Shown in pieces: positions 33,387 through 63,817 of a DNA stretch of 64,000 bases. Made by a program: the position numbers and the translations under genes. The DNA is taken from contig JAFDWN010000048.1 in assembly GCA_018268465.1 (NCBI GenBank), positions 1-64,000 of the forward strand, written 5' to 3'. The DNA is from Actinomycetota bacterium (lineage in GTDB: Bacteria > Actinomycetota > Actinomycetes > Mycobacteriales > Mycobacteriaceae). The number at the start of each line of letters is the position of its first letter. The first letter of the stretch is position 1. The notes under the pieces are model-generated. The model was given only the letters and a program-made list of their open reading frames with translations, was not told where the DNA came from and ran no database searches.

Positions 33387-33401
33387 CGCATACTGTATGC
33401 A
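33387..33401. promoter_or_regulatory. TGCATACNGTATGCA palindrome, sulfatase promoter
   Basis: CGCATACTGTATGCA matches the shared operator at 14 of 15 positions. It ends 31 nt before the GTG start of the sulfatase-like gene and overlaps an upstream in-frame ATG, which argues against that ATG as a start. Confidence 0.75.
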
Positions 33402-33432
33402 GTCGCCTGAAACGCGACCGGGAGGAGCGACG

Positions 33433-34779
33433 GTGTCGAACCGGCGAGACAATGTACTGATCGTGCACTGCCACGACATGGGGCGGTTCCTGGGCGCCTA
33501 CGGGCCCAACGGTGTGCGGAGTCCGCGGCTGGACGAGCTGGCGGCCGAAGGCATCCTGTTCACCCGCGCCCATGCGACCGCACCGCTGTGCTCGCCCGCT
33601 CTCGGGTCGCTGTACACGGGGCGCTACCCCCACAGCAACGGTTTGATCAACCTCGTCCACCAGGGCTGGGAGTACCGGACAGGGGTCCGCACCCTGCCGC
33701 GGATCATGTCCGACGCCGGCTGGTACTCGGCACTCTTCGGAATGCAGCACGAAACCGCGCTGCCGTCGCGCCTGGGCTTCTACGAATTCGACGTGTCGAA
33801 CGCCTACTGCGAGTACGTGGTGGGCCAGGCCACCGACTGGATTCGCACTCGGGCCAAGGCCAGCGAGCCGTTCCTGATGACGGCGGGTCTCTTCGAGGCG
33901 CACCGGCCCTACCCGCGCGAGCGCTACCAGCCCGCCGACCTCGACGACGTGGTGGTACCCGAGTACCTGCCCGACACCGAAGCGGTTCGCCGCGACATGG
34001 CCGATTTCTACGGTGCGATCGCCAGCGCCGACGCCGCCGTCGGCCAGCTGCTCGACGTACTCGCCGACACCGGACTGGACGCCAGCACCTGGGTGGTCTT
34101 CATGACCGATCACGGTCCGGCCTTCCCGCGGGCGATGTCGACGCTCTACGACGCCGGCACGGGCATCGCCCTGATCGTGCGCCCGCCGCGCCGGTCGGGC
34201 GTCGCGCCCCGCGTGTACGACGAGCTGTTCAGCGGCGTGGACCTGCTGCCCACCCTGCTCAGCCTGGTCGGCATCACCGTGCCCGCCGATGTCGAGGGAC
34301 TCTCGCACGCCCACAACCTGCTGGCCGAGTCCGGCGCGGTGGCGACGGTGCGTGATCACGTCATCTCGGCGAAAACCCATCACGATTCGTGTGACCGCCT
34401 GCGCGCCGTGCGCACCAAGGAGTACTCCTACATCGAGGATTACGAGCACCGGCCGTCGCCGGCGTCGTCCTGGCAGGTCAACCACGATTCGCCGGTGAAG
34501 GTGTTCGTCCCCGACATCACCGCCCTGCAGCCGCGCCGCGAGCTCTACGACCTGGTCAACGATCCGCACGAAATGCGCAATCTCCTTGTCGGACAGCCGA
34601 ACGACGATGTGCGTGCCGTGGCAGACCGCCTGGCGGCAACCCTGCGCGCGTGGCGTCCGAACCCCAATGACACCACCCCGTCCGAGCAGGTCGGCGCGCA
34701 GGTGACCGAACAGTATGCGGGTTTCTACTGGCAGATGTTCAACGCCGGCCGGGGGAGTGCCGCGCGCGCCCGCCGCTGA
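33433..34779 (+). CDS. Sulfatase-family protein with altered signature
   Basis: About 448 residues, alkaline-phosphatase superfamily, sulfatase type. Metal-site Asp in HCHDMGR, MTDHGPAF, and GRYPHSNG after the active site are visible. The formylglycine signature normally reads C-x-P-S-R; here it is CSPALGS, so the Arg is replaced by Leu and maturation of the Cys to formylglycine may fail or the protein may use another nucleophile. GTG 33433 follows GGAGGAGCGA. The gene lies 31 nt downstream of the oxalate-region palindrome. Substrate unknown; sulfate ester, phosphonate or phosphate are all possible. Confidence 0.78.
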   Translation: MSNRRDNVLIVHCHDMGRFLGAYGPNGVRSPRLDELAAEGILFTRAHATAPLCSPALGSLYTGRYPHSNGLINLVHQGWEYRTGVRTLPRIMSDAGWYSALFGMQHETALPSRLGFYEFDVSNAYCEYVVGQATDWIRTRAKASEPFLMTAGLFEAHRPYPRERYQPADLDDVVVPEYLPDTEAVRRDMADFYGAIASADAAVGQLLDVLADTGLDASTWVVFMTDHGPAFPRAMSTLYDAGTGIALIVRPPRRSGVAPRVYDELFSGVDLLPTLLSLVGITVPADVEGLSHAHNLLAESGAVATVRDHVISAKTHHDSCDRLRAVRTKEYSYIEDYEHRPSPASSWQVNHDSPVKVFVPDITALQPRRELYDLVNDPHEMRNLLVGQPNDDVRAVADRLAATLRAWRPNPNDTTPSEQVGAQVTEQYAGFYWQMFNAGRGSAARARR

Positions 34780-35010
34780 GGACGTGCCCGGCGCCTCCGA
34801 GTAGCGGGCTACCTGCCGACCCCGGCCGAATCCGCGCACGTACACATCGAATCGTCGCGGCGACAACGGTTCCCGCCCTCGCCACCCCGCCGATGACGTC
34901 GCGCCGCCGCCAATCGGGTAGCGCCCTACGCTAGGCCGCGACCCCGCCGTGCGGCGACGATAATCGGGTGGGGCGTATCCAGGTTCGTGCCCCGCGATCG
35001 GGGGACGACG

Positions 35011-35529
35011 ATGGACGAATCTGCAGCGCGGACCGGCATTCCGAAAGAAGCATGGGCGGCCATCGGCGTCATCGGGGCCGCAGCGGTCACCGGCGCGGTG
35101 TCGCTTGTCGTCAATCTCGGTCATGCCGCAGGCGATACACCAGCCGCGCCGGCGCCGATGGCGGCCAGCGAGACGGCGGCGCCGCCGCCGAGCCCCGTCG
35201 CCGTGATCATGGGCAGCTGGCGCGGGGTCGCCGAGACCGGCGAGGGCCGCGCCCTCGACATCTCCCTGGACATCGACCGTGCATGCGAGGTCGGCGAACT
35301 CTGCGGAGCGATCGGGATTTCCACCGTGCCCTGCTACGGTCAGGTCTTCCTCGACGCCGACGAAGGCGGTGAGCTCGCGTTCCGGGTCGCCAACTTCGAC
35401 GATCGAAGCGACCGCACCTGTCAGGAGGGCGGCGGGGAATTGTTCAGGCTGCGGCCCGACGGGAAACTGGCCTACCGGACGACCTACGAGCCGACCGTCA
35501 CCGGTGTCCTGGAGAAGACCCGCCCGTGA
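35011..35529 (+). CDS. Membrane-anchored hypothetical protein
   Basis: About 172 residues: a short N-terminal cytoplasmic part, one membrane segment (WAAIGVIGAAAVTGAVSLVV), a Pro/Ala linker, and an extracytoplasmic domain with four Cys (in CEVGELC, PCYG, TCQE) that may form disulfides. ATG 35011 has GGGGGA upstream; GTG 34987 is the alternative. The fold resembles small lipocalin-like or beta-sandwich secreted domains of actinobacteria, but I cannot name it. Confidence 0.6.
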   Translation: MDESAARTGIPKEAWAAIGVIGAAAVTGAVSLVVNLGHAAGDTPAAPAPMAASETAAPPPSPVAVIMGSWRGVAETGEGRALDISLDIDRACEVGELCGAIGISTVPCYGQVFLDADEGGELAFRVANFDDRSDRTCQEGGGELFRLRPDGKLAYRTTYEPTVTGVLEKTRP

Positions 35530-35544
35530 CGCGGGCGCGGCACG

Positions 35545-35904
35545 CTACTCGCTCTGCTCCCGCGTCACGTCCTTGATCCACGTCAGTCCCTTCACGGCCT
35601 GGGGCCAGCCCAGGGTGGTCGCCGCCAGCAGTGCCACGTGTTCGAGTTCGGCGGCGGACAGCCCCTCGGCAAGGCCCCGGCGGCAGTGCGAATGGACGGC
35701 GCCGCGGGAGTTGGCACCGATGGCGATCGCCAGGTGGACGAGCCGTTTGGTGTGTCCGTCGAGCGGACCGGCCTCGCCGAGCGCGGTGCCCAGCTGCTGG
35801 AGTGCGGCCCACACATCAGGGTGATCCTCGGCGATCTGGCGAGGCACCCGCGGCAGCGCGACTGCGGGGTTCTCGGACAACTCGGTGGGCAACGCTCGTT
35901 CCAT
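35545..35904 (-). CDS. Carboxymuconolactone decarboxylase (AhpD-like) family protein
   Basis: A 119-residue CMD-fold protein. The helix GANSRGAVHSHCRRGLAEG carries a conserved His and a Cys, but the CxxC pair of AhpD is reduced to one Cys, so peroxidase-type chemistry is doubtful. Start is ATG 35904. It is followed, divergently, by nothing obvious, and lies 158 nt from the FdhF-like gene on the same strand, so it could be co-transcribed with it. Confidence 0.75.
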   Translation of the reverse strand: MERALPTELSENPAVALPRVPRQIAEDHPDVWAALQQLGTALGEAGPLDGHTKRLVHLAIAIGANSRGAVHSHCRRGLAEGLSAAELEHVALLAATTLGWPQAVKGLTWIKDVTREQSE

Positions 35905-36062
35905 CGGATACTCCCTCGTTGGTGGACGTGCAGTCCCATTCTCCGGTGTCGGGCGAGGCGGTACTGGCGAATGAGCCGTCCGGTGGCAGACAGGTTGCAC
36001 CGACAGTTCCGGCGCGGCGGGTGTCGCCGAAACACGTTGCCGCCGAACGGCTCAACCGATGT

Positions 36063-38396: not shown

Positions 38397-38673
38397 CGAA
38401 GCTGGCCTTTCTGCTTGTGCAGGCACATGGGCTATCGCCGCCGCCGGAGCGGTCGGCCTGTCCTGCGGTGTCGGCCTACCCATATACCCGGTATGCCAGG
38501 GGCTGTCACCTTCAATGTTCGCCCGTAACCTGGCAAAGAGTCCAACTGCCGTCGCTTACCGGCTGATAGATGAGAGTTATCACGCCTACGCGCGCCCGTC
38601 GCGAATACGGTCCGCCGCCGCCGTCGGTCGGGGCGTTTGCGGCGATGCCGGCGGGCCGCCCGGGGGTGACGAA

Positions 38674-38919: not shown

Positions 38920-38948
38920 CCTGATCACCACCTGCGGAGGTCCAGTAG

Positions 38949-38963
38949 TGAAGACAGTATACA
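38949..38963. promoter_or_regulatory. Shared palindrome, weak copy
   Basis: TGAAGACAGTATACA keeps the ACAGTAT half and the outer TG and CA; 12 of 15 positions agree with the consensus. It is in the promoter region of the 81-residue protein gene. Confidence 0.5.
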
Positions 38964-39174
38964 GAATCCAGGATGTGATGCAAGACACGTCGGCGGGTGT
39001 GGTAACGCCGCCTTTCCGGATCGGATTCTCCGGGTCTCGCGTGCGGGTCATGCGATGCGCCCAGGCGTGCACGACCCCGGTGCGGACGGGGAGGGTATGG
39101 CCGGCCGCGGACCGGGCGGCGTCTCCCCCGGATGGGGGATTACGGCCGCCAGGCGTTTACTCGCCGTGATCTAT

Positions 39175-39287: not shown

Positions 39288-39303
39288 TGCATAACTGTAT
39301 GCC
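39288..39303. promoter_or_regulatory. Shared palindrome, proximal copy with one extra base
   Basis: TGCATAACTGTATGCC has both half-sites but one additional A between them. It ends 17 nt before the GTG start of the reductase-like gene. Confidence 0.55.
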
Positions 39304-39320
39304 CTTGGAAGGGAGTGACC

Positions 39321-40343
39321 GTGAAGATTGCAGTCGTCGGAGCCGGAGCGATCGGCGCCTACTGGGGCGCGGCATTGCAGCGCGGCGGTGCGGAGGTGCA
39401 CCTCATCGCGCGTAAGGCGCACCTGCAGGCAATGCGGGAGAACGGTGTCCGGGTGCTCAGCGACCGCGGCGATTTCACGGCCTACCCCCATGCCACGGAC
39501 AACCCCCATGACATCGGGCCCGTCGACTATGTCTTCCTCGGGCTCAAGGCCCACAGCTACCCGACGTGCGGACCGCTGGTGGAGCCGCTCCTGGGCGAGC
39601 ACACCGCGGTGCTCCCCGCCCAGAACGGCATTCCGTGGTGGTACTTCCACGAGCTGGACGGCCCGTACCGCGGTCACCGCATCGAGGCCGTCGACCCGGG
39701 CGGCGCCACCAGCGCCGTGCTGTCACCCGAGCGCGCGATCGGCTGCGTGGTGTATCCGGCCACGACCATCGAGGCGCCCGGGGTGATCCGTCATATCGAG
39801 GGCACCCGATTCTCGATCGGCGAACCGTCCGGCGAGATCTCCGCGCGGTGCACCGCCCTGAGCGAGGCCATGATCGCCGGCGGCCTCAAGGCGCCCGTGG
39901 AAGCCGATCTGCGCAAGGACATCTGGATCAAGCTGATGGGCAACGTCGCCTTCAACCCGCTCAGCGCCCTCACCCGCGCCACCATGGTCGAGATCTGCCA
40001 GAACCAGAACACCCGCCAGGTGGTCGTCCAGCTCATGGAAGAGACGCTGGACATCGCGGCCCGCGTCGGTTGCACCCCCGACATCTCCATCGAGAAGCGG
40101 CTGCGGGGCGCCGAGGGCGTGGGTCACCACAAGACCTCGATGCTGCAGGACCTGGAGGCCGGCAAGGAGCTCGAGCTCGGCCCCATCGTGACGGCGGTCG
40201 TCGAGATGGCCGACCTGACCGGCGCGCCCGCTCCTACCCTGCGGACCGTTCACGCCGCCACCGATCTGCTGTCGCGCACGGCGATCCCGGCCGCCGCGCC
40301 GGCCGCCACCCCCGAGCCGGCACCCGAGCCGGCGCTGCGCTGA
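39321..40343 (+). CDS. Ketopantoate reductase-like (PanE/ApbA) dehydrogenase
   Basis: About 340 residues. N-terminal NADPH-binding GAGAIGAYWG, then LGLKAHS and AQNGIPWWY, and a C-terminal helical domain with KLMGNVAFNPLSALT, as in PanE/ApbA-type 2-oxoacid reductases. GTG 39321 has GAAGGGAG 5 nt before it; GTG 39315 is the alternative. An Ala/Pro-rich tail (about 20 residues) ends it. It is 32 nt upstream of pyruvate kinase and carries two operator copies. Besides 2-dehydropantoate it could act on another 2-oxo acid, such as an intermediate of glyoxylate metabolism. Confidence 0.8.
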   Translation: MKIAVVGAGAIGAYWGAALQRGGAEVHLIARKAHLQAMRENGVRVLSDRGDFTAYPHATDNPHDIGPVDYVFLGLKAHSYPTCGPLVEPLLGEHTAVLPAQNGIPWWYFHELDGPYRGHRIEAVDPGGATSAVLSPERAIGCVVYPATTIEAPGVIRHIEGTRFSIGEPSGEISARCTALSEAMIAGGLKAPVEADLRKDIWIKLMGNVAFNPLSALTRATMVEICQNQNTRQVVVQLMEETLDIAARVGCTPDISIEKRLRGAEGVGHHKTSMLQDLEAGKELELGPIVTAVVEMADLTGAPAPTLRTVHAATDLLSRTAIPAAAPAATPEPAPEPALR

Positions 40344-40375: not shown

Positions 40376-41797
<1,422 letters not shown>

Positions 41798-42440: not shown

Positions 42441-42455
42441 CGAATACTGAATACA
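42441..42455. promoter_or_regulatory. Shared palindrome, degenerate copy
   Basis: CGAATACTGAATACA matches the consensus at 11 of 15 positions. It lies between the PAS gene and the LysR gene. Confidence 0.4.
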
Positions 42456-42513
42456 ATGTCCGGTAGACTGCTCGACAGGCCGGCAACGGTGCGGAAGGCG
42501 AGGAGGACGACTC

Positions 42514-43503
42514 ATGCTGCTGCGTCAGCTCGAGTATTTCGTCGCGGTCTCGCGGGAACGGCACTTCGCCCGCGCCGCCGAAACGTGCTACGTATCGCAG
42601 CCCGCGCTCTCCACGTCGATCGCCAAACTGGAACGCGAACTCAACGTCACGCTGATCAACCGCGGGCAGAACTTCGAAGGACTCACACCCGAGGGTGAGC
42701 GGCTGGTGGTGTGGGCCAAGCGGGTGCTCGCCGAGCACGACGCACTCAAGGCCGAGGCGGAAGCCATGCGGTCTGGAATCTCCGGGGTGCTGCGGCTGGG
42801 TACGGGGCCCACCGTGTCGACGACGACGGCGCTTCCCGTGGCCGCGTTCTGTGCGCTACACCCCCTGGCCCGGGTGAAAGTCTGTTCGCGGCTGTCGTCG
42901 ACCGAACTGCTGCGCCAGCTCCGCGACTTCGAATTGGACGCCGCCATTGCGCATTTCGGTCCCGACGACCAGTCGGGCCTGGAGGTGGTGCCGCTCTACG
43001 AGGAGCAGTACGTGCTGCTCGTCTCGGGCGAACAGCTCGTCCCCGCCGCGCGGACCATCACGTGGGCCGAGGCCGCTCAGCTTCCGCTGGCCTTGCTGAC
43101 GCCCGATATGCGATTCCGCCAGTTCATCGACAAGGCGTTCGCGAGCTCCGGGGCGGTTGCCATGCCTCAAGTGGAAACCGACTCCGTGGCTTCGCTTTAC
43201 GCACACGTCGCCACCGGAGCGTGGGCAAGCGTGGTGCCACACACCTGGCTGCGGGATATGCCGGTGGCCGGCGCGGCGCGTGCGATCCGCCTGGTGGAAC
43301 CCGACGCGAGGGCGCAGATCTCGATGGCCATCCACGCCGCGGGACCCGGATCGGTGGCCGCGCGGGCATTCCTCAACGTCGCGATGGCGACCGCGCTCGA
43401 CGAAGTCTTCGAACTGAAACGTCAAGACCCCGTGGGCAATCGGCCGGGGTCGGGGAAATCGGTTCCCGGCGGACAGGCAGTCGACGCAATGTCGATCGTG
43501 TGA
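42514..43503 (+). CDS. LysR-family transcriptional regulator
   Basis: A 329-residue LysR protein: N-terminal helix-turn-helix (LEYFVAVSRERHFARAAETCYVSQPALSTSIAKLERELNV) and a two-lobed substrate-binding domain from about residue 90. It sits directly upstream of oxc-frc in the same direction. A T-N11-A box at 43566-43582 in front of oxc is its likely target, so it is the probable oxalate-responsive activator of oxc-frc. The ligand could be oxalate, oxalyl-CoA or formyl-CoA; this is inference. Confidence 0.87.
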   Translation: MLLRQLEYFVAVSRERHFARAAETCYVSQPALSTSIAKLERELNVTLINRGQNFEGLTPEGERLVVWAKRVLAEHDALKAEAEAMRSGISGVLRLGTGPTVSTTTALPVAAFCALHPLARVKVCSRLSSTELLRQLRDFELDAAIAHFGPDDQSGLEVVPLYEEQYVLLVSGEQLVPAARTITWAEAAQLPLALLTPDMRFRQFIDKAFASSGAVAMPQVETDSVASLYAHVATGAWASVVPHTWLRDMPVAGAARAIRLVEPDARAQISMAIHAAGPGSVAARAFLNVAMATALDEVFELKRQDPVGNRPGSGKSVPGGQAVDAMSIV

Positions 43504-43679: not shown

Positions 43680-45413
43680 ATGACCATTGCTTCCATGCCG
43701 GACACGGAGGCGGGGCACGCCGAAGAGCCGCGTACCCTCACCGATGGCATCCATCTGGTCGTCGACGCACTGAAGCTCAACGATGTCCACACCATCTACG
43801 GTGTGGTCGGCATTCCGATCACCGACCTGGCCCGGGTGGCCCAGGGTTCGGGCATTCGCTACATCGGGTTCCGCCACGAGAGCGACGCGGCACACGCCGC
43901 CGCCGCCGCCGGATTCCTCACCAAGAAGCCGGGCATCTGCCTGACGGTATCGGCCCCCGGCTTCCTCAACGGTCTGGTCGGGCTGGCCAACGCCACCACC
44001 AACTGCTTCCCGATGATCCAGATCTCCGGGTCCAGCGAGCGTCACATCGTCGACCTGCAGCGCGGTGACTACGAAGAGATGGACCAGCTCGCCGCTGCCA
44101 AGCCGTTCTGCAAGGCGGCCTACCGCATCTCGCGTGCCGAGGACATCGGCCGCGGTATCGCCCGTGCGATCCGCACGGCGGTGTCCGGCCGTCCCGGCGG
44201 CGTGTACCTCGACATCCCGGCCGCCGTGCTCGGTGAGGTCGTCGACGCGGTCGAGTACGCCAAGACCCTGTGGAAGGTCGTCGACCCCGCACCCAAGCAG
44301 CTGCCCGACACCGAATCCGTCGATCGCGCTCTGGAACTGCTCGCCGGCGCCAAGCGCCCGCTGATCGTGCTCGGCAAGGGTGCCGCCTACGCGCAGGTCG
44401 ACGAGACCATCCGGGAGTTCGTCGAGTCCACCGGCCTGCCCTACGTGCCGATGTCGATGGCCAAGGGTCTGCTGCCCGACGACCATCCGCAGTCGGCCGC
44501 CACCGCTCGGTCGCTTGCGCTGAAGAAGGCCGACGTCGTCATGTTGATCGGCGCCCGCCTGAACTGGCTGCTCGGCCACGGCGACGCACCGCAGTGGAAT
44601 CCGGATGCCAAGTTCATCCAGGTCGACATCGCCGCCGCCGAGATGGACAGCAACCAGCCGATCGCGGCTCCGCTGGTCGGTGACATCGGCTCGGTGCTCG
44701 AGGCGCTCAACGAGCGTGCCAAGCCCGGCCAGATCACCGCCCCGGTGGAGTGGCGCGAAGAGCTCGCCGGACGCTCGGCCCAGAACATCGGCAAGATGGC
44801 GGGCCGCCTGGAGGCCGCGCAGACCGCGCACCCGATGAAGTTCCTCGGCGCACTGCAGGCCATCCGCGACGTCCTCAAGGACAACCCGCAGGCCTACGTG
44901 GTCAACGAGGGTGCCAACGCACTCGACCTGGCACGCAACACCATCCCCATGTCGGTGCCGCGGCACCGGTTGGACAGCGGTACGTGGGGCGTGATGGGCA
45001 TCGGCATGGGTTACGCGATCGCCACCGCCGTCGAGACCGGCGAGCCGGTCATCGCGATCGAGGGTGACAGCGCATTCGGCTTCAGCGGTATGGAGCTGGA
45101 GGCGGTCTGCCGCTACAACCTGCCGATCGTCACGGTGATCCTCAACAACAGCGGTGTGTACCGCGGTGACGACGCCTCGCCCAACGGCGATCCCGCGCCG
45201 ACCGCGCTGCGGGCCCGGCACGAGTACATGATCAAGGCCTTCGGCGGCAAGGGCTACCAGGCGACCACCCCGCAGGAGGTGGCCGAGGCCCTGCGCGAGG
45301 CACTGGCCTCCGGACGCCCCGCGCTGATCGACTGCGTGATCGACCCGTCCGACGGCACCGAGAGCGGCAACATCGCCCACCTCAACCCCAAGGGCATCAC
45401 CGTCCCTCACTGA
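43680..45413 (+). CDS. oxc: Oxalyl-CoA decarboxylase
   Basis: A 577-residue thiamine-diphosphate enzyme that converts oxalyl-CoA to formyl-CoA and CO2. The N-terminal Glu region (YGVVGIPITDLARVAQ, then FRHESDAAHAAAAAGFLT), the PYR domain SAPGFLNGL, and the C-terminal ThDP motif GDSAFGFSGMELE (about residue 462) with NNSG (about 488) are all seen, and the length matches oxalyl-CoA decarboxylases. ATG 43680 has AGGAAGG 9 nt upstream. It is followed 84 nt later by frc. Cytoplasmic. Confidence 0.95.
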   Translation: MTIASMPDTEAGHAEEPRTLTDGIHLVVDALKLNDVHTIYGVVGIPITDLARVAQGSGIRYIGFRHESDAAHAAAAAGFLTKKPGICLTVSAPGFLNGLVGLANATTNCFPMIQISGSSERHIVDLQRGDYEEMDQLAAAKPFCKAAYRISRAEDIGRGIARAIRTAVSGRPGGVYLDIPAAVLGEVVDAVEYAKTLWKVVDPAPKQLPDTESVDRALELLAGAKRPLIVLGKGAAYAQVDETIREFVESTGLPYVPMSMAKGLLPDDHPQSAATARSLALKKADVVMLIGARLNWLLGHGDAPQWNPDAKFIQVDIAAAEMDSNQPIAAPLVGDIGSVLEALNERAKPGQITAPVEWREELAGRSAQNIGKMAGRLEAAQTAHPMKFLGALQAIRDVLKDNPQAYVVNEGANALDLARNTIPMSVPRHRLDSGTWGVMGIGMGYAIATAVETGEPVIAIEGDSAFGFSGMELEAVCRYNLPIVTVILNNSGVYRGDDASPNGDPAPTALRARHEYMIKAFGGKGYQATTPQEVAEALREALASGRPALIDCVIDPSDGTESGNIAHLNPKGITVPH

Positions 45414-45497: not shown

Positions 45498-46754
45498 ATG
45501 TCAGAACTTCCGCTCTCCGGGATCAAGGTGATCGACTTCACCGGCGTCCAGGCGGGCCCGGCGTGCACCCAGATGCTCGCCTGGTTCGGAGCCGACGTAC
45601 TGAAGGTGGAGCGCCCGGGTGGGGGTGACGTCACGCGGAATCAGCTGCGCGACATCCCCGAGCTCGACGCCCTCTACTTCACGATGCTCAACAGCAACAA
45701 GCGTTCGCTGGCCATCGACACCAAGTCGCCCGAGGGCCTGGCCGTGATGGAGAAGCTGGTCCGCGAGGCCGACGTCCTGGTGGAGAACTTCGCCCCCGGC
45801 GCGATGGACCGCATGGGCCTGTCGTGGGAGCAGCTGCAGGAGTGGAACCCGCGCCTGATCTTCGGCTCGGTCAAGGGCTTCAACGACGACTCCTCGTGGA
45901 ATGACCTCAAGGTCTACGAGAACGTCGCCCAGTGCGCCGGCGGCGCCGCGTCGACCACCGGTTTCTGGGACGGCCCGCCGACCGTCAGCGGTGCCGCGCT
46001 CGGTGACAGCAACACCGGCATGCACCTGCTGATCGGCCTGCTCGCCGCGATCATCCACCGCGACAAGACCGGCAAGGGCCAGCGGGTGTCGGTGTCCATG
46101 CAGGACGCCGTCCTCAACCTGTGCCGCGTCAAGCTGCGCGACCAGCAGCGTCTGGACAAGATCGGCTACCTCGAGGAGTACCCGCAGTGGCCGAACGGTG
46201 AGTTCACCGACGTCGTGCCCCGTGGCGGCAACGCCGGTGGCGGCGGCCAGCCCGGCTGGGTGGTCAAGTGCAAGGGCTGGGAGTCCGATCCCAATGCCTA
46301 CATCTACTTCACCATCCAGGAGCAGAACTGGAAGCGCACCGCCGAGGCCATCGGCCGGCCGGAGTGGGTCACCGATCCCGGTTACAACACGGCTCGCGCC
46401 CGCCAGGACAAGATCTTCGACATCTTTGCCGAGATCGAGAAGTGGCTGGCCGACAAGACCAAGTACGAAGCGGTCGACATCCTGCGCAAGTGGGAGGTGC
46501 CGTGCGCGCCGGTCATGTCGATGAAGGAGATCGCCGAGGACGCCGATCTGCGCAAGTCGGGCACCGTCGCCGAGGTGGAGCAGCCGGGTCGTGGCACGTT
46601 CCTCACCGTGGGCAGCCCGGTGAAGTTCTCGTCGTTCAAGCCGGACATCAAGGCCGCGCCGCTGCTCGGTGAGCACACCGATCAGGTCCTGGCCGAGCTC
46701 GGTTACGACGCCGAGGCGATCGCCAAGCTGCACGAGAGCAAGGTCGTCGTCTAG
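45498..46754 (+). CDS. frc: Formyl-CoA:oxalate CoA-transferase
   Basis: A 418-residue family III CoA transferase closely resembling Oxalobacter Frc. It moves CoA from formyl-CoA to oxalate, giving oxalyl-CoA and formate. The start [20 protein letters not shown], and catalytic Asp170 in GDSNTGMH, are conserved; the GGGGQ loop is present as [15 protein letters not shown] 45498 follows AAAGGAAAGG. It is in an operon with oxc, and a terminator follows. Together with oxc it forms the catalytic cycle in which formyl-CoA activates the next oxalate. Confidence 0.95.
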
Positions 46755-46871: not shown

Positions 46872-46947
46872 TCACATCCCGGCCCCGACGCCCCGCTAGT
46901 GTGATCTACATCGCACCGAAATCCGCGCGGGCCTGGCCATCACATAC

Positions 46948-46962
46948 TGCATACAGTATTAT
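46948..46962. promoter_or_regulatory. Shared palindrome, fds promoter
   Basis: TGCATACAGTATTAT keeps one half-site fully and most of the second; it also lies inside a wider ATACTG-CATA-CAGTAT inverted repeat (46944-46959). It ends 31 nt before the fdsG start. Confidence 0.65.
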
Positions 46963-52232: not shown

Positions 52233-53576
52233 TCAGGGCAGGTGGATCGGCGGGTATCCGGGGCGGTGCAGCAGCCGCGTCAGCGCGGCCGCGCTCAGAC
52301 TGACGACGCCTGCGGCGGCGAACACCACCGGGAGGTTCTGGGAGGCGATCGATGCGGCGGGCAGTCCGACACCGATGATGCCGCCGACGATCTTGGCGCT
52401 GTACACCAGCCCGAAGTTGCGAACGGAATTGCGCTCCCCGAAATAGTCGGCGACCAGGCTCGCGAACAGCGAGTAGAACGCGCCACCGGCCAGTCCGCTC
52501 AGCGCGGCGGCTGCCACGAAGGCCGCCGCCTGGTGATGTGCGGCGCAATAGACCAGGGACAGCTGCGCCACACCCTGCAGCAGCAGGGCGGCACTGAGCG
52601 TGCGGCGCCTGCCGTGGCGATCGGAGATCCGGCTGACCACGGTGCGTCCCGCGCCGTTGACCACAGCCAGCATCCCGGCCGCCGTCGCGGCGACGCCGAG
52701 GCCGAAACCGTTGGCCATGGCCATGATCGGGACGTACACGATCGCCAGGAGGGATACCGCGGCGGCGAACACCAGGATCAGATACATCGCCGCGAACGCC
52801 GAGGTGCGCGCCGCCTGCCCGGGGGAGTATTGACGCACGGCGGGCGCGTTGTTGGTCAGGCTGCGGTTCACCCGCTTGTCGACGGCCCAAAGTTTGGGAT
52901 CCACCTCCGGCGGCCACCAGCCCGCCGGGGGATCGCGGAAGAAGGCGCCGGCGACGGCCACGACGGCCACGATGCCCAGGCCCACTCCGGTGAAGATCGC
53001 CGACTGGTTCTGAGGCGTCAGGCCCACGGCAAACAGCGCGATCAGCGGTACCGCCCCGTAGCCGAAGGCCCCGGTGACCAAACCGATCCGTGCTCCGCGC
53101 TGTTCGGGATACCACTTGGCGACGGTGGCGGAGCATGTTGCGTAGACGATGCCGGCCCCCGTACCCGAGAGCACGGAGTAACCGAGGATCGCGAGCGCGA
53201 GGCTGTCGGTGTGGGCGAGTGTGACCGGACCTGCACCGCACAGCAGCGCGCCGATGAGCATCGTCCGCGACGGGGAGAGGGCGAACCGGTGGTTCAGCGC
53301 CGCCGTCGGTGCGGCGGCACCGGCCTGGAACACCACCCAGAGGGCCAGCACCCACAGGGCGCCCGTGAGGCCGGCACCGTCGGGGCGCAGCGATGTCAGT
53401 GCGACGGCATACCCGAACTGCAGGACGCCGATCGCGGCCATCGCCGCCCAGGGCAGCCAGAGCATCCACGCGCGGGAGCGGCCCATGATGTCCTGAGGTC
53501 GCTCGCCGACCCGGTACGACCGCCCGTGCAGGTCTCGGATCTCCAGCACCGCGACACCGCCATCTTTACCGGACAT
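52233..53576 (-). CDS. OFA-type MFS transporter (oxalate/formate), copy 1
   Basis: A 447-residue protein with 12 membrane segments, related to the second copy at 60500-61903 and to the OFA (oxalate/formate antiporter) branch. Shared features: an N-terminal cytoplasmic lead ending in GRSRAWMLWLPWAAM, VYATCSATVAKWYPEQRG, and a middle loop FFRDPPAGWWPPEVDP. It should exchange oxalate for formate or import one of them. The operator palindrome lies 18 nt before its start. It is divergent from fdhD. Confidence 0.83.
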   Translation of the reverse strand: MSGKDGGVAVLEIRDLHGRSYRVGERPQDIMGRSRAWMLWLPWAAMAAIGVLQFGYAVALTSLRPDGAGLTGALWVLALWVVFQAGAAAPTAALNHRFALSPSRTMLIGALLCGAGPVTLAHTDSLALAILGYSVLSGTGAGIVYATCSATVAKWYPEQRGARIGLVTGAFGYGAVPLIALFAVGLTPQNQSAIFTGVGLGIVAVVAVAGAFFRDPPAGWWPPEVDPKLWAVDKRVNRSLTNNAPAVRQYSPGQAARTSAFAAMYLILVFAAAVSLLAIVYVPIMAMANGFGLGVAATAAGMLAVVNGAGRTVVSRISDRHGRRRTLSAALLLQGVAQLSLVYCAAHHQAAAFVAAAALSGLAGGAFYSLFASLVADYFGERNSVRNFGLVYSAKIVGGIIGVGLPAASIASQNLPVVFAAAGVVSLSAAALTRLLHRPGYPPIHLP

Positions 53577-53594: not shown

Positions 53595-53609
53595 TGCATA
53601 CAGTATGCG
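53595..53609. promoter_or_regulatory. Shared palindrome, OFA copy 1 promoter
   Basis: TGCATACAGTATGCG, 14 of 15 matches; 18 nt before the transporter start codon. Confidence 0.8.
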
Positions 53610-53761: not shown

Positions 53762-54610
53762 ATGGGGCGTGTCACCAGTCGACGCCGCGTCACCCGGCTC
53801 GTCGACGGTCAGGTCAGCGCGCGGCCCGACACGCTGGTCGTCGAGGAACCCCTGGAGATCCGGGTCGCCGGACGGCCGCTGACGGTGACCATGCGAACGC
53901 CGGGTCACGACTTCGACCTGGCCGCAGGCTTTCTGGTCAGCGAAGGTGTGGTGCGGCGCGGCCGCGAAGTCGCCGGCATCCGGTACTGCGCCGGCGCCAC
54001 CGACGACGGAGCCAACACCTACAACGTCGTCGACGTGGTGCTCGCCGCCGACGTGCCACCGCCGGACCCCTCCCTGGAGCGCAACTTCTACACGACGTCG
54101 TCGTGCGGGCTATGCGGCAAGGCGAGCCTGGACGCGGTGCGCACCACGGCGGCATGGTCGGTGCACGACGACCCCCTGCGGGTGGATGCCGCCACGGTCG
54201 CCGCGCTGCCCGACCGCCTGCGCGCGGCCCAGCAGATCTTCTCGAGGACCGGAGGTCTGCACGCGGCGGGACTGTTCAGCGCGGATGGCGAATTGCTGTG
54301 CCTGCGTGAAGATGTCGGGCGGCACAACGCCGTCGACAAGGTCATCGGATGGGCGCTGCGCGAGGACCGGCTGCCGTTGCGCGGTACGCAGCTGCTGGTG
54401 AGTGGTCGCGCCTCGTTCGAATTGGTGCAGAAAGCCGTCATGGCGGGCATACCCCTGCTGGCTGCGGTGTCGGCGCCGTCGTCGCTGGCGGCCGATCTCG
54501 CCGCCGACAACGGGCTCACCCTCATCGGCTTCCTGCGCGGCACGACGATGAACGTCTACTGCGGCGGGCACCGGCTCGGTGTCGGGGATACGGCGCTCGT
54601 CGACGCCTGA
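53762..54610 (+). CDS. fdhD: Formate dehydrogenase accessory sulfurtransferase FdhD
   Basis: A 282-residue FdhD that transfers sulfur to the molybdenum cofactor of formate dehydrogenases. The Cys pair is C115 and C118 in SSCGLCGK; the conserved [13 protein letters not shown] is near residue 182, and the end SRASFELV-like ([12 protein letters not shown]) is present. ATG 53762 is used; the open frame begins at 53672 inside the operator. It is single, divergent from OFA copy 1, and serves fdsA and possibly the FdhF-like enzyme. Confidence 0.9.
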
Positions 54611-54719: not shown

Positions 54720-54734
54720 TGCATACAGTATGCT
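54720..54734. promoter_or_regulatory. Shared palindrome, pnt promoter
   Basis: TGCATACAGTATGCT, 14 of 15 matches. It lies 325 nt before pntAA, so a long leader follows. Confidence 0.75.
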
Positions 54735-55058: not shown

Positions 55059-56153
55059 ATGACAGACAAGACGACGGTCGGCGTGGTTGCCGAGTCCGGC
55101 GCCGATGAGCGGCGCGTTGCGCTGGTCCCCAAGGCGGTGGCAGCGCTGGTCGGCAGCGGTGCGGCCGTGGTGGTGGAGGCCGGTGCGGGCCTGCGGGCAC
55201 TGCTGCCCGACGAGTTGTACGTGGCCGCGGGCGCGTCGATCGGGGATGCCTGGTCGGCCGACATCGTGGTGAAAGTGGCTCCGCCCAGCGCCGGTGAGGT
55301 AACGCGGTTGCGGGCTGGGCAGACGTTGATCGGGTTCCTGGCCCCGCGCAACGCCGACAACCAGATCGGCGCCCTCAAGGCGGCCGGGGTGGCGGCGTAC
55401 GCGGTCGAGGCTATTCCGCGGATTTCGCGGGCCCAGGTGATGGACGCGTTGTCCTCGCAGGCCAACGTGGCCGGATACAAGGCGGTCTTGCTGGCCGCCT
55501 CGGAGTCCACCCGGTTCTTTCCGATGCTGACCACCGCGGCGGGCACGGTCAAACCGGCCACGGTGCTGGTGCTGGGCGTCGGCGTGGCGGGGTTGCAGGC
55601 ATTGGCCACCGCCAAGCGGTTGGGCGGGCGGACCACGGGCTACGACGTCCGTCCCGAGGTCGCCGATCAGGTGCGGTCGGTGGGCGCGCAATGGCTCGAT
55701 CTGGGGATCGACGCGGCCGGTGAAGGTGGCTATGCGCGCGAACTGTCCGAGGAAGAGCGTGCGCTGCAACAGAAGTCGCTGGAGAAGGCGATCACCGGAT
55801 TCGACGTGGTGATCACGACGGCGTTGGTGCCGGGGCGTCCCGCGCCGCGGTTGGTCACCGCCTCGGCGGTGGAAGGAATGAAGCCGGGCAGCGTAATCGT
55901 GGATATGGCCGGGGAAACCGGCGGTAACTGCGAGTTGACCGAGCCGGGCCAGACAGTGGTCAAACACGGCGTGACAATCTGCTCGCCGCTGAATCTGCCC
56001 GCGACGATGCCCGAGCATTCCAGCGAGCTGTATTCGAAGAACCTCACCGCGCTGCTGGACCTGTTGGTCACCGACGGTGTGCTGGCACCAGATTTCGACG
56101 ACGAAGTGATCGCGGCGTCCTGCGTGACGCGCGCCGCGAAGGAGGCGGTCTAA
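55059..56153 (+). CDS. pntAA: NAD(P) transhydrogenase subunit alpha, part 1
   Basis: A 364-residue soluble NAD(H)-binding subunit of the proton-translocating transhydrogenase. ESGADERRVALVPKAV at the start and GVGVAGLQALATAKRLGG as the dinucleotide motif are typical of this AlaDh/PNT family. ATG 55059 has no strong Shine-Dalgarno. It is followed directly by pntAB. With formate dehydrogenase producing NADH, the enzyme can supply NADPH for biosynthesis. Confidence 0.92.
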   Translation: MTDKTTVGVVAESGADERRVALVPKAVAALVGSGAAVVVEAGAGLRALLPDELYVAAGASIGDAWSADIVVKVAPPSAGEVTRLRAGQTLIGFLAPRNADNQIGALKAAGVAAYAVEAIPRISRAQVMDALSSQANVAGYKAVLLAASESTRFFPMLTTAAGTVKPATVLVLGVGVAGLQALATAKRLGGRTTGYDVRPEVADQVRSVGAQWLDLGIDAAGEGGYARELSEEERALQQKSLEKAITGFDVVITTALVPGRPAPRLVTASAVEGMKPGSVIVDMAGETGGNCELTEPGQTVVKHGVTICSPLNLPATMPEHSSELYSKNLTALLDLLVTDGVLAPDFDDEVIAASCVTRAAKEAV

Positions 56154-56483
56154 ATGTACGACCAGTTGTTGGCCAATATCGCGATCCTGGTCCTGGCCGG
56201 GTTCGTGGGATTCGCCGTGATTTCCAAGGTGCCCAACACCTTGCACACGCCGTTGATGTCGGGCACCAACGCCATTCACGGCATCGTGGTGCTGGGCGCA
56301 TTGATCGTGTTGGGCAATCTGCCCGGTGATGCGGGCTGGGGAGTGCGGATCATCGCGTTCGTGGCGTTGATCTTCGGCACGCTCAACGTGATCGGTGGCT
56401 TCCTGGTCACCGACCGCATGCTGGGTATGTTCAAGGCCAAGCCCGCCGCGGCGAAGGCGTCGAAAGCTGGAGCCGGACAATGA
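56154..56483 (+). CDS. pntAB: NAD(P) transhydrogenase subunit alpha, part 2
   Basis: A 109-residue membrane subunit with three to four hydrophobic segments and the conserved SKVPNTLHTPLMSGTNAIHG. ATG follows the pntAA stop at once, and its stop overlaps pntB by 4 nt. Confidence 0.92.
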   Translation: MYDQLLANIAILVLAGFVGFAVISKVPNTLHTPLMSGTNAIHGIVVLGALIVLGNLPGDAGWGVRIIAFVALIFGTLNVIGGFLVTDRMLGMFKAKPAAAKASKAGAGQ

Positions 56484-57913
56484 ATTACTTCGTCAATGTG
56501 TTGTACATCGTCGCATTCGCGCTGTTCATCCTCGGCCTGTCGGGGCTGACCGGGCCCAAGACGGCGGTGCGCGGCAACTGGATCGCCGCGTTCGGCATGG
56601 GTCTGGCGGTGGTGGCCACCTTGATCAAGGTGCGCGACACCGCGGCGATCAACTGGATCCTGATCATCGCCGGTCTGGCGATCGGCGTGATCCTGGGTGT
56701 GCCGCCGGCCAAGAAGACCAAGATGACCGCGATGCCACAGCTGGTGGCGTTGTTCAACGGCGTCGGTGGTGGCACGGTCGCGTTGATCGCGTGGGCGGAA
56801 TTCCTCGAGACCGACGGCTTCGCTCATTTCAAACCCGACCAGCACCCGACGGTGGCGCTGGTGGTGGGGTCGCTGTTCGCGGCGATCATCGGCTCGGTGT
56901 CGTTCTGGGGTTCGCTGGTGGCCTTCCTGAAGCTGCAGGAGATGCTGCCCAAGAATGTCGAAAAGACGTTGGTGGCCTCGGCGAAGTTCTTCCAGGCGGC
57001 CAATATCGCGCTGCTGCTCGGTGCGGTGGCGATGTCGGTGTACATCGGTGTCAACGCCGGGACGGGCACTCCGGGCTGGACGATCGTGCTGGTGCTGGTG
57101 CTGGCCGGCGTGATGGGCCTGTTCGTGGTGTTCCCCATCGGCGGCGCGGATATGCCGGTGGTCATCTCGCTGCTCAACGCGCTCACCGGGCTTTCGGCCG
57201 CGGCGGCGGGTCTGGCGCTGAACAACACCGCGATGATCGTGGCCGGCATGATCGTGGGCGCGTCGGGTTCGATCCTGACCAACCTGATGGCGGTGGCGAT
57301 GAACCGGTCCATCCCGGCGATCGTGTTCGGCTCGTTCGGCGGCGGCGATGCCGGCCCCGGTGGCCCGGGTGGCGAACAGGGCACCGTCAAGGCGACCAGC
57401 GCCGCGGATGCGGCGATCCAGATGGCGTATGCCAATCAGGTGATCGTCGTGCCCGGTTACGGCCTGGCCGTGGCGCAGGCCCAGCACGCGGTCAAGGAGA
57501 TGGCCGAGCTGTTGGAGAACAAGGGGGTGGAGGTCAAATACGCCATCCACCCGGTGGCCGGCCGGATGCCCGGGCATATGAACGTGCTGCTCGCCGAGGC
57601 CGACGTCGCCTACGACGCGATGAAGGAAATGGACGACATCAACGGCGAATTCAACCGCACCGACGTCACGCTGGTCATCGGCGCCAACGACGTCACCAAC
57701 CCCGCGGCGCGCAACGACCCGTCCAGCCCGATTCACGGGATGCCGATCCTCAACGTCGACCAGTCCCGGTCGGTCATCGTGCTCAAGCGGTCGATGTCCT
57801 CGGGTTACGCCGGTATCGACAACCCGCTGTTCTTCGCCGACCAGACCTCCATGCTCTTCGGCGATGCCAAGAAGTCCGTCGGCGAGATGACCGAGGAGCT
57901 CAAGGCGCTCTGA
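56480..57913 (+). CDS. pntB: NAD(P) transhydrogenase subunit beta
   Basis: A 477-residue protein: about eight membrane segments, then a soluble NADP(H)-binding domain (from about residue 305), with VVPGYGLAVAQAQHAV and GANDVTNPAA. It carries the proton path together with pntAB. A hairpin at 57933-57967 follows. Confidence 0.93.
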   Translation: MNYFVNVLYIVAFALFILGLSGLTGPKTAVRGNWIAAFGMGLAVVATLIKVRDTAAINWILIIAGLAIGVILGVPPAKKTKMTAMPQLVALFNGVGGGTVALIAWAEFLETDGFAHFKPDQHPTVALVVGSLFAAIIGSVSFWGSLVAFLKLQEMLPKNVEKTLVASAKFFQAANIALLLGAVAMSVYIGVNAGTGTPGWTIVLVLVLAGVMGLFVVFPIGGADMPVVISLLNALTGLSAAAAGLALNNTAMIVAGMIVGASGSILTNLMAVAMNRSIPAIVFGSFGGGDAGPGGPGGEQGTVKATSAADAAIQMAYANQVIVVPGYGLAVAQAQHAVKEMAELLENKGVEVKYAIHPVAGRMPGHMNVLLAEADVAYDAMKEMDDINGEFNRTDVTLVIGANDVTNPAARNDPSSPIHGMPILNVDQSRSVIVLKRSMSSGYAGIDNPLFFADQTSMLFGDAKKSVGEMTEELKAL

Positions 57914-58153: not shown

Positions 58154-58261
58154 TTACCGTTCCGCGGTCCGCTCCCGGGCGCACTGTGCGTATCGGCGCT
58201 GCGCCCACTCGATGCAGAAACCCACCGAGATCACCAGCGACGTCGCGATATACGCGGCCAT
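58154..58261 (-). CDS. Possible 35-residue membrane protein coupled to sucD
   Basis: The frame starts with an ATG that shares a base with the sucD stop (TGATG), a classic reinitiation arrangement, and encodes [20 protein letters not shown] followed by a basic tail RRYAQCARERTAER. The hydrophobic part could span a membrane. The frame is followed by a perfect terminator hairpin, so it lies inside the sucCD transcript. I know no family, and no stronger evidence of translation exists. A chance frame is possible. Confidence 0.5.
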   Translation of the reverse strand: MAAYIATSLVISVGFCIEWAQRRYAQCARERTAER

Positions 58262-59160
58262 CAGACGGGCTGTGCCGGCTGGAGGAAGTGTGCGCGCACC
58301 AATTCGGCGCTCTCCGAAGGGGTCTTGCCGACCTTCACGCCCGCGGCTTCGAGGGCTTCCTTCTTGGCCTGTGCGGTGCCGGCGGAGCCCGACACGATGG
58401 CGCCCGCATGGCCCATGGTCTTGCCCGCGGGCGCGGTGAAGCCGGCGACGTAGCCGATGACCGGTTTGGTGACGTGCCGTTCGATGTAGGCAGCCGCACG
58501 CTCCTCGGCGTCGCCGCCGATCTCACCGATCATCACGATGACTTCGGTGTCGGGGTCTTTCTCGAAGGCCTCCAGCGCGTCGATGTGGGTGGTTCCGACG
58601 ATCGGGTCGCCGCCGATGCCCACCGCCGTGGAGAAACCGATGTCGCGCAGTTCGTACATCATCTGATAGGTCAGGGTGCCGGATTTGGACACCAGACCGA
58701 TGGGGCCCTGGCCGGTGATGTTGGCGGGGATGATGCCGGCGTTGCACTGGCCGGGGGAGATGACACCCGGGCAGTTCGGTCCGATGATCCGCGTCGCGTT
58801 GCCCTTGGCGACGGCGTGGGCCCAGAAGTAGGCCGTGTCGTGTACCGGAATGCCCTCGGTGATGACCACCGCGAGCGGGATGCCCGCATCGATGGCTTCC
58901 ACCGCGGCGTCCTTGGCGAATTTCGGCGGTACGAAGATCACGCTGACGTCGGCGCCGGTCTCCTTCATGGCCTCCTCGACCGTTCCGAACACGGTGAGCT
59001 CGGAGCCGTCGATGGTGACCTTCTGTCCCGCCTTGCGGGCGTTCACGCCGCCCACGATCTGCGAACCCGCCTGCGACATCTTGGTGGCGTGTTTGGTGGC
59101 CTCGGATCCGGTGAGGCCCTGGACGATGATCCTGCTGTTGGAATCGATGAAGATCGACAT
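58261..59160 (-). CDS. sucD: Succinyl-CoA synthetase alpha subunit
   Basis: A 299-residue ADP- or GDP-forming succinyl-CoA synthetase alpha subunit. Conserved: [31 protein letters not shown], and the phosphorylated His251 in GHAGAI. It makes succinyl-CoA or the reverse with SucC. It is 5 nt after sucC. See the finding on why this operon may belong to oxalate metabolism. Confidence 0.93.
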
Positions 59161-59165
59161 GGTGA

Positions 59166-60335
59166 TCAGGCTCCTGCTGCGGCGAGTTCGGCGGCCTTGT
59201 CTGCCGCGTTGTCCATGGAGTCCACCTGGGTGACCAGGGGGTGGTTGGCGCGGTCGAGGATCGCGCGACCCTCGTCGACGTTGTTGCCGTCGAGACGGAC
59301 CACCAGCGGCTTGGTCGCCTCGTCGCCGAGGATCTTCAGCGCCTCGACGATGCCGGTCGCGACCGCATCGCAGGCGGTGATGCCGCCGAACACGTTGACG
59401 AACACCGACCGGACGGACGGGTCGTTGAGGATGACGTCCAGCCCCGCGGCCATCACCTCGGCCGAAGCCCCGCCGCCGATGTCGAGGAAGTTGGCGGGCT
59501 TCACGCCGCCGTGCTTCTCACCGGCGTAGGCAACCACGTCGAGGGTGGACATCACCAGCCCCGCGCCGTTGCCGATGATGCCGACCTGCCCGTCGAGTTT
59601 GACGTAGTTCAGATCCTTCGCCTTGGCCTTGGCCTCCAGCGGATCCTCGGACTGCTTGTCGACGAGGTCGGCGTGGCCGGGCTGGCGGAAGGCGGCGTTC
59701 TCGTCCAGGGTGACCTTGCCGTCGAGCGCGACGATGGTGTCGGCGCTGTCGCGCACGAGCGGGTTGACCTCCACCAGCGTGGCGTCCTCGGCTACGAACG
59801 TCTCCCAGAGCTTGACCAGGACCTCGGCGGCCTGGTCGCGGATCTCGGCGGGAAAGCCGGCCGCGGTGAGGATCTCAACGGCCTTGGCCGTGTCGACACC
59901 GGTGGTCGCATCCACCGGCACCTTCGCCAGGGCTTCGGGCCGTTCCACGGCGAGCTGCTCGATCTCCATGCCGCCCTCGGCGGAAGCCATCGCCAGGAAC
60001 GTCCGGTTGGTGCGGTCGAGGAGGTAGGAGACGTAGTACTCCTGGGCGATGTCCGACGACTCGGTGACCAGCACCCGCCGGGCGATGTGGCCCTTGATGT
60101 CCATCCCGAGTATGGCCGCGGCCTTCTCCCTGGCGTCGGCGGCATCCGTGGCCAGCTTCACACCACCGGCCTTGCCCCGCCCGCCCGTCTTCACCTGGGC
60201 CTTGATCACGACCTTGCCGCCGAGTCGCTCGGCCACCTCCTGGGCTTCGGCCGGAGTGCTCGCGACCGCGCCGTCCAATACCGGTACCCCGTGCTCGGCG
60301 AAGAGGTCTCTCGCCTGATGTTCGAATAAGTCCAT
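59166..60335 (-). CDS. sucC: Succinyl-CoA synthetase beta subunit
   Basis: A 389-residue ATP-grasp subunit: [19 protein letters not shown] start, [20 protein letters not shown] in the nucleotide-binding region, [11 protein letters not shown], and FVNVFGGI near the end. ATG 60335 is only 7 nt from the palindrome at 60343-60357, so a ribosome-binding site is absent and the transcript may be leaderless or nearly so. The longer open frame (start 60461) crosses the operator and is unlikely. Confidence 0.93.
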
Positions 60336-60342: not shown

Positions 60343-60357
60343 TGTAGACAGTATGCA
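60343..60357. promoter_or_regulatory. Shared palindrome, sucC promoter
   Basis: TGTAGACAGTATGCA, 13 of 15 matches, 7 nt before the sucC start. Confidence 0.72.
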
Positions 60358-63198: not shown

Positions 63199-63328
63199 GA
63201 CATTCCCCTTCACTTGCGGATGGACAGGTCCACCGGATCCCGACGCTCCCGCGTGGGGATCAACCACAGGTTGAGTTCGTCAGTGACTTCACGCCGAACC
63301 CGGCGTAGCGTCACTGCCTACCGAATAT

Positions 63329-63343
63329 TGCATACAGTTGATG
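63329..63343. promoter_or_regulatory. Shared palindrome half-site before frc copy 2
   Basis: TGCATACAGTTGATG contains one good half (TGCATACAGT) and a poor second half. It is about 130 nt before the frc copy 2 start. Confidence 0.45.
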
Positions 63344-63393
63344 GTCTTGTGAAGCCGCTCACTGGTTCTGTCAGAAAGTAACCGACGTCACAA

Positions 63394-63408
63394 TGCGTAC
63401 GGTATACC
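63394..63408. promoter_or_regulatory. Shared palindrome, second copy before frc copy 2
   Basis: TGCGTACGGTATACC matches the consensus at 12 of 15 positions; another half-site (GCATACAATCAG) follows at 63409. The centre base is G here, A or T elsewhere. Confidence 0.5.
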
Positions 63409-63417
63409 GCATACAAT

Positions 63418-63802
63418 CAGAGCGCAAGACGAATCGTCGACTTTGTTTCCCCGCCTCTGCGCCTGCCCGTCGCGGGTCGCCTCCGGATCGTCGCGCGAAA
63501 GGTCCGGATATCGGACCTCGACGCCGTCGGGGTGATCCTCGGGAGGTGCGCCCCGTGCCGCGTATGAGCGGGTGCGCCAGGACGGGTAGGGCCAGTCTCC
63601 TGACGGCCCGGTTCCACATTCCTGGACGTCAGCTGTGTATCGAAACATGGTGCAGATAAAGAAGATTCACAATTTGCGCGCGGGCGAGCGGGTGAGCGCC
63701 GTTGGCGGCCAGTTCTTCTCTGTGAAAGTGCTTGGAGCTTCGCTGTGAAAACGCTTGAGGCAGTAGACGTATGGGAGTTACCGGGGTCACACTCAGCAGT
63801 AC
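63418..63802. other. Intergenic stretch with a 23-bp spaced direct repeat
   Basis: No convincing gene lies between the frc copy 2 promoter and the operator at 63803. Several frames are open on both strands but have no family likeness and no ribosome-binding site. The visible structure is two similar 18-bp units, CTGTGAAAGTGCTTGGAG (63720-63737) and CTGTGAAAACGCTTGAGG (63743-63760), spaced 23 bp apart. Confidence 0.5.
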
Positions 63803-63817
63803 CGCATACGGTATGCA
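63803..63817. promoter_or_regulatory. Shared palindrome near the right edge
   Basis: CGCATACGGTATGCA, 14 of 15 matches. It lies 92 nt before a possible gene start at 63910 whose product runs off the window. Confidence 0.68.

Follow-up and report, generated by a model that had tools for sequence, protein, structure and literature searches.

The 64,000-nt stretch analysed here (the window) comprises positions 1-64000 of an 82,157-base contig, JAFDWN010000048.1, of a bacterium of the Mycobacteriaceae, whose genome amounts to 6,875,363 bases in 72 contigs; about 18 kb more of the contig lie past the window end. Within the last 31 kb of the window a 15-bp palindrome recurs among genes for oxalate and formate use. 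A preliminary description had proposed that a GntR/FCD factor, its gene not visible in the window, may control these genes, and a gene for such a regulator was indeed found on this contig, 1.6 kb beyond the end of the window. We scored sites with a position matrix trained solely on the loci of other genomes (consensus AYTGCATACWGTATGCART), with expectations from a first-order Markov model, and chose start codons ourselves from the reading frames. The predicted sites and the genes around them are as follows (genomes, contigs and loci carry our own G, C and L numbers).

33387..33401, predicted operator site, 32.6 bits, 31 nt before the sulfatase GTG start at 33433
38949..38970, weak double site, two registers 7 bp apart, 17.1 and 12.6 bits
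39175..39189, predicted operator site upstream of the panE-like reductase gene, 26.8 bits, about 125 nt to panE
39288..39302, site with one extra base inside it, 12-18 nt ahead of the panE-like reductase gene
39315..40343, forward strand, PanE/ApbA-like reductase (family match)
40376..41797, forward strand, pyruvate kinase (TIGR01064, above the cut-off)
42441..42462, double site 51-58 nt before lysR, 15.4 and 12.9 bits (lysR sites occur in other genomes too)
42514..43503, forward strand, LysR-type regulator (family match)
43680..45413, forward strand, oxc, oxalyl-CoA decarboxylase (TIGR03254)
45498..46754, forward strand, frc copy 1, formyl-CoA transferase (TIGR03253)
46941..46962, double site 31 nt before fdsG, 18.2 and 20.7 bits
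46994..52128, forward strand, fdsGBAD, NAD-linked formate dehydrogenase (family matches, that of fdsB below the curated cut-off)
52233..53576, reverse strand, OFA-like MFS transporter copy 1 (TIGR00890 at 150 bits, below the cut-off)
53595..53609, predicted operator site 18 nt before OFA-like copy 1, 26.8 bits
53673..53687, predicted operator site upstream of fdhD, 22.9 bits, 74 nt to the chosen Met
53762..54610, forward strand, fdhD (family match)
54720..54734, predicted operator site, 34.7 bits, about 324 nt before pntA
55059..57913, forward strand, pntAB transhydrogenase (family match)
58261..60335, reverse strand, sucCD, succinate-CoA ligase (family matches)
60343..60357, predicted operator site 7 nt before sucC, 23.6 bits
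60500..63198, reverse strand, OFA-like copy 2 and frc copy 2 (family matches)
63322..63343, double site about 123 nt before frc2, 13.4 and 8.5 bits
63394..63415, double site between frc2 and OFA-like copy 3, 7.9 and 14.6 bits
63803..63817, predicted operator site upstream of OFA-like copy 3, 28.4 bits, 250-259 nt to the start
about 64077-65471, beyond the window, OFA-like copy 3 (match below the curated cut-off)
65584-66321 (L009:1584-2321), beyond the window, reverse strand, GntR/FCD regulator (PF00392, PF07729)
66376-66390, beyond the window, weak possible self-control site, AGCATACAGTCGCCA, 9.8 bits, 54 nt before the chosen gntR start; the gntR open frame itself starts at 66468
L009:2666-3436, beyond the window and beside gntR, IclR-type regulator

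All ten sites of the preliminary description are present, nine of them at one to three mismatches (one at 33387, 39175, 53595, 54720 and 63803; two at 53673 and 60343; three at 46948 and 63394) and that at 39288-39302 with one inserted base. The weaker copies it reported at 38949, 42441 and 63329 were likewise recovered, with three, four and five mismatches. At up to three mismatches the window holds ten matches, compared with a mean of 0.83 and a largest value of 4 in 100 shuffles. The whole genome holds eight copies at up to two mismatches, the only one outside the cluster being L010:8255-8269 (C1:392255; 23.5 bits), 47 nt before an open reading frame that appears by eye to be of histone-deacetylase type and gave no NCBIfam family match at E 1e-60; whether this site is a chance match or a distant target is undecided. 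The other seven lie between 33387 and 63817 of the window. When three mismatches were allowed, the genome gave 57 copies versus 49 for the reversed control, which indicates that three-mismatch copies elsewhere are background. With the matrix from other genomes, 15 matches of at least 10 bits were found at 12 places on this contig, where 0.2 were expected, and none of at least 4 bits in the first 33 kb of the window, from which good copies had already been described as missing. The motif is real and local to this gene cluster.

Next to these counts, the distribution of the motif among relatives points to its reader. A first pattern search of 100 relatives was made without reference to any regulator, and among the matches listed it showed grouped sites in four genomes from outside the genus (G063, G070, G083 and G092); to these we added G090, which shares its genus with G063, and these five were thus picked for motif clusters or kinship. 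In all five, a regulator orthologue of 66-70% identity was found in the same region as the motif cluster, the next GntR protein by E-value being only 36% identical. All five sites of G070, a single 9.2 Mb contig, were located within 12.6 kb of the orthologue. We then compared 80 loci, the best 80 of 466 relatives, which were retrieved with the regulator alignment and fetched with up to 10 kb on each side (1.457 Mb in total); they span Mycobacterium, Amycolatopsis, Streptomyces, Micromonosporaceae, Nocardioides, Lentzea, Saccharothrix and others. At up to two mismatches the motif was present in 70 of them, at 136 sites, and 75 had a core oxalate/formate gene of at least 60% identity. A site of at least 14 bits of the derived matrix occurred in 78 of the 80, a figure that is partly circular.

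That the repeats might be chance occurrences or a selfish repeat family rather than operators is suggested by their shortness and by three-mismatch copies being at about background genome-wide. This explanation is contradicted by 20 scrambled palindromes of the same composition, which gave 16, 13 and, for the other 18, 0-2 sites on the same loci, compared with the 136 of the motif. Furthermore, conservation around the matrix core, ATAC-W-GTAT, fades to background about 4 bp outside the 15-mer, and in different genera the sites stand in front of the same genes. Annotated homologues make up 51% of the DNA in the 80 loci, yet 135 of the 136 sites fall outside them and a single site inside one. 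We consider a chance or selfish origin to have practically no probability. Comparison of these genomes shows the motif travelling with this GntR regulator, its predicted reader.

The two other regulators of the cluster were considered as readers of the motif. The LysR-type regulator (42514-43503) is encoded inside the cluster, beside oxc-frc, and has sites 51-58 nt upstream of its gene; moreover, LysR orthologues of at least 60% identity occur in 22 of the 80 loci. However, the motif was present in 51 of the 58 loci without LysR (absence being judged within the fetched stretch), and G070 and G092 have motif clusters and no LysR match at E 1e-40 genome-wide, while the LysR homologues of G063, G083 and G090 are only 41-47% identical and lie on other contigs. 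Conversely, two same-genus regions with oxc and a LysR at 65% (L133 and L134) contained no site of at least 10 bits. Since the motif occurs where the LysR gene does not, we rejected LysR as the reader by presence and absence and regard this assignment as very unlikely. Sites lie 34-65 nt upstream of lysR in other genomes, as they do here at 51-58 nt, and LysR is therefore probably a subordinate regulator, a target rather than a reader of the motif. The IclR-type regulator, beside gntR, adjoins gcl, tsr and hyi of the glyoxylate branch and might for that reason be proposed to read the motif. It was found at 50% identity or more in only six of the 80 loci, again within the fetched stretch, whereas the motif was present in 64 of the 74 others; this candidate was rejected on the same grounds, and its probability is slighter still.

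To see how motif, regulator and oxalate genes are distributed more widely, we used a control set of 246 genomes of the class, with the motif taken at up to one mismatch and the orthologue at E 1e-50. The motif was found in 32, the regulator orthologue in 24 (four of which, G200, G227, G275 and G327, have a stop inside a match) and oxc in 11. Eight genomes, including G261, have oxc without an orthologue at this threshold. Seven oxc genomes (G011, G017, G029, G053, G058, G249 and G310) had no copy at up to one mismatch on the oxc contig, and their best GntR protein was 30-38% identical, or none was found at E 1e-15; the oxc regions of G058 and G029, read over 20 kb, contained no site of at least 10 bits. 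The explanation that the motif is a simple companion of oxalate genes was rejected, because in these seven genomes, which lack this GntR, the oxc contig carries no close copy. G261, with the motif beside oxc and no GntR at E 1e-50, was considered as a counter-example and dismissed, since a looser search found the orthologue on the same contig, as two partial matches (54-56%), one of them 16.6 kb from the site. Among the 31 other motif-bearing genomes, a GntR protein of 41-63% identity lay within 17.3 kb of the site in 15 and within 10 kb in 12. These proteins were seen, with the regulator alone as query, in 14 stretches plus L128 for G261; the stretches of G292 and G208 were chosen to reach a GntR gene already placed, and most others extend only 10 kb from the site. 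In G259 and G198 the site is in an frc region and the orthologue on a different contig.

Three further arrangements were noted in these genomes. In G196 the motif stands just before a GntR gene whose product is 32% identical and has the helix SRTPVREAL (L150:10000); this is perhaps another family member using a similar operator. G053:C19 has two exact motif copies 11 bp apart (L132:10550-10575), and the 20 kb read there contain no GntR match. An apparent motif cluster in G096 was discarded as an 11-bp tandem array with no GntR match, no window homologue and no matrix match.

Several observations weigh against the assignment of the motif to this regulator. Ten of the 80 loci have no site at up to two mismatches, and one of these, L094, has none by the matrix as well. 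Many of the 80 loci come from close relatives (Amycolatopsis, Streptomyces), so the counts are not independent. Thirteen of the 31 motif-bearing genomes showed a lone match and no GntR in the stretch read; these lone matches are most likely due to chance. In G002, a genome of the same genus, two copies with two mismatches lie 70 bp apart (L165:9963-10047, G002:C1), and no GntR gene or other window homologue was found within about 10 kb of them (20 kb read); this pair is unexplained by the favoured assignment. The regulator's own upstream site is weak here (9.8 bits). Finally, the AC-N-GT centre of the motif breaks the published FadR-subfamily consensus (PMC4494728), which is usual but not defining.

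The regulator itself has an N-terminal GntR winged helix (PF00392 at 74.1 bits, cut-off 27) and a C-terminal FCD domain (PF07729 at 83 bits, cut-off 24.3), and scored 92 bits with the NanR model, far under the cut-off of 260. FCD domains bind metal through a D/N-H-H-H pattern of positions. The corresponding residues N157, H161, H203 and H225 were identical in 100 of 100 regulator copies and align with the D/H/H/H of the solved FCD proteins 7xp0 and 3fms; such invariant metal positions would suit a small carboxylate ligand such as oxalate. The conservation of residues 71-78 and 80-87 is biased, as the loci were selected by those peptides. With regard to self-control, this genome has only the weak 9.8-bit site upstream of gntR (0.2 expected per contig); in other genomes, 30 sites lie within 400 nt of a gntR start, many of them in promoters shared with panE. 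Two tandem GntR gene copies occur in 12 Streptomyces loci (L093, L095-L097, L100, L101, L103, L106, L107, L111, L112 and L121), and nine of these have a site 27-128 nt upstream of the second copy.

Which genes the sites precede was examined by taking as target the nearest start within 400 nt, a site between divergent genes counting for both. Over the 80 loci the targets were panE (34), oxc-like (31), gntR (30), sucC (29), OFA1 (13), lysR (10), fdhD (9), frc2 (8), pntA (6), OFA3 (4), gcl (2) and fdsG (1), and most of these are targets in the window also. Most of the 31 oxc-like targets belong to another thiamine-dependent enzyme: in these loci the matches to oxc at 26-28%, like those to fdsA or fdsB at 35-47%, represent different enzymes from within the respective superfamilies. 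Four fdsA rows with negative distances were not counted as targets. Past gntR and the IclR gene lie gcl, the tartronate-semialdehyde reductase gene tsr and a hydroxypyruvate-isomerase-like gene, hyi (match below the curated cut-off). A second molybdopterin oxidoreductase of the FdhF/YdeP family is encoded in the cluster at 36063-38483, with the closest matrix site, 38949, about 470 nt from its start. A promoter scan of 53500-54900 found nothing.

According to the preliminary description, sites usually lie 7 to 31 nt before a start codon. This was borne out at 33387 (31), 39288 (12 or 18), 46948 (31), 53595 (18) and 60343 (7), and failed at 39175 (about 125), 53673 (74), 54720 (324), 63322-63415 (about 120-200 from frc2) and 63803 (250-259). 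The last of these sites precedes the third OFA-like gene, which lies beyond the window and out of view of the preliminary description. The 81-residue protein named as a target found no support; the reading frame identified there (38909-39169, 86 aa) overlaps the site and has no family match. As many sites are 7-35 nt before start codons, repression is the most likely mode of action. The same GntR/FCD protein could instead act as an activator, or in both ways, and some sites 100-320 nt before the start (54720 here; those of pntA and sucC elsewhere) would fit either role. However, 12 of the 13 OFA1 sites and 27 of the 34 panE sites are only 8-34 nt away from the start codon that follows, a position at which a bound protein should block transcription, and we regard activation as unlikely.

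Taken together, the genome comparisons strongly support the view that a single factor would control a coherent set of oxalate and formate genes, and this factor is very probably the GntR/FCD protein. This part of the preliminary description stands, and the motif-based reasoning behind it does not: short ATAC/GTAT palindromes had been taken as typical of GntR-FCD regulators, whereas the published FadR-subfamily consensus has GT upstream of AC (PMC4494728), and the centre here is AC-N-GT. We consider it highly probable that the palindrome is the operator of the regulator at 65584-66321, acting as an FCD repressor of a local oxalate/formate regulon; physical binding, repression and the ligand are what we infer from sequence. 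The regulator would bind its operator as a dimer, with a second dimer bound at some promoters in a register shifted by 7 bp. Under its control would be the OFA-like transporters for uptake, frc and sucCD for CoA activation, lysR-oxc-frc for decarboxylation, the panE-like gene for the reductive step from oxalyl-CoA to glyoxylate, fds and fdhD for the oxidation of formate, pntAB for the supply of NADPH, and probably its own gene. Most likely it would repress these genes by blocking transcription near their starts, with release when a small oxalate-derived carboxylate (oxalate, glyoxylate or formate) occupies the FCD metal site. From known enzymology, the OFA-like carriers would import oxalate, Frc and SucCD would handle CoA, and Oxc and Fds would burn oxalate to CO2, yielding NADH. 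The PanE-like protein (39315..40343), predicted to have oxalyl-CoA reductase activity, would make glyoxylate from oxalyl-CoA, Pnt supplying the NADPH, and the glyoxylate would be taken on by Gcl and its partners.

The motif extends to a separate branch of regulators at 41-45% identity, which accounts for 10 of the 15 genomes mentioned above; it represents one other genus, and all ten proteins have the helix SRQPVREAL. The one branch locus scanned (L142:3366-10338) has the motif and a GntR of 45% identity with this helix; its neighbours are a mannose-type phosphotransferase system (PTS), an amidohydrolase and a TauE exporter, together with a sulfatase that shares 42% identity with the first target in the window. 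The chances are about even that the regulator founds a distinct FCD operator class, an ATAC-N-GTAT palindrome with overlapping 7-bp registers common to the SRQPVREAL clade. One branch would then serve oxalate and formate use across Actinomycetia, including redox, CoA supply and a subordinate LysR, and the 41-45% branch a PTS/amidohydrolase/sulfatase cluster in the one locus scanned. With respect to origin, the window oxc is closer to those of G180, G261 and G277 (76-78%), which belong to another family of the same class and are probably Streptomyces, than to those of six same-genus genomes (68-71%), and none of 14 same-genus genomes has a GntR orthologue at E 1e-50. Given this affinity outside the genus, the cluster looks accessory or horizontally acquired.

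Oxalate-eating bacteria shape soil carbon through the oxalate-carbonate pathway. Among the open-access papers listed in our literature searches we found no transcriptional regulator for actinobacterial oxalate use and no oxalate-linked GntR protein, subscription journals being largely outside the scope of this search. In the proposed regulon one operator would tie together uptake, both fates of oxalyl-CoA, formate oxidation, and the supply of NADPH and CoA. Through this shared operator, a role of the PanE-like protein, of SucCD and of Pnt in the pathway becomes testable, and regulator and operator together are a ready candidate for an oxalate-responsive switch.

The sites also have a finer structure. 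Among 173 distinct sites, 31 had a secondary site of at least 8 bits at 7 bp from the main one, compared with 5.3 expected from grafted cores; eight were seen at 13 bp, where none was expected, and five more at 14, 20 or 21 bp. No secondary sites occurred at the other spacings tested. Some of the genomes are related, so that these counts are not independent. For many GntR operators, weaker half-sites at a distance of 7-12 nt have been described (PMC4494728).

The regulator is a member of the GntR/FCD family with an unusual predicted operator. Like the FadR subfamily, it combines a GntR winged helix with an FCD domain and three metal-site histidines, and has a local metabolic regulon and a palindromic operator. 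It differs in that its operator is centred on AC-N-GT and has sister sites at 7 and 13 bp, whereas the published subfamily consensus is TKGT-N2/3-ACMA, with GT before AC, 2-3 nt between them, and NanR and BioR as exceptions (PMC4494728). NanR resembles it as an FCD regulator with a non-consensus operator, given as direct repeats of TGGTATAW (PMC4494728). Unlike NanR, the regulator described here is linked to a different pathway, and its operator is an inverted repeat with a 1-bp spacer. A metabolic parallel lies outside these families. Methylobacterium extorquens reportedly assimilates oxalate by oxalyl-CoA reduction (Schneider et al. 2012, cited in PMC3720670). The reducing enzyme is reportedly a PanE homologue. 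The frc, oxc, PanE-like reductase and formate dehydrogenase genes of the window would form the same pathway.

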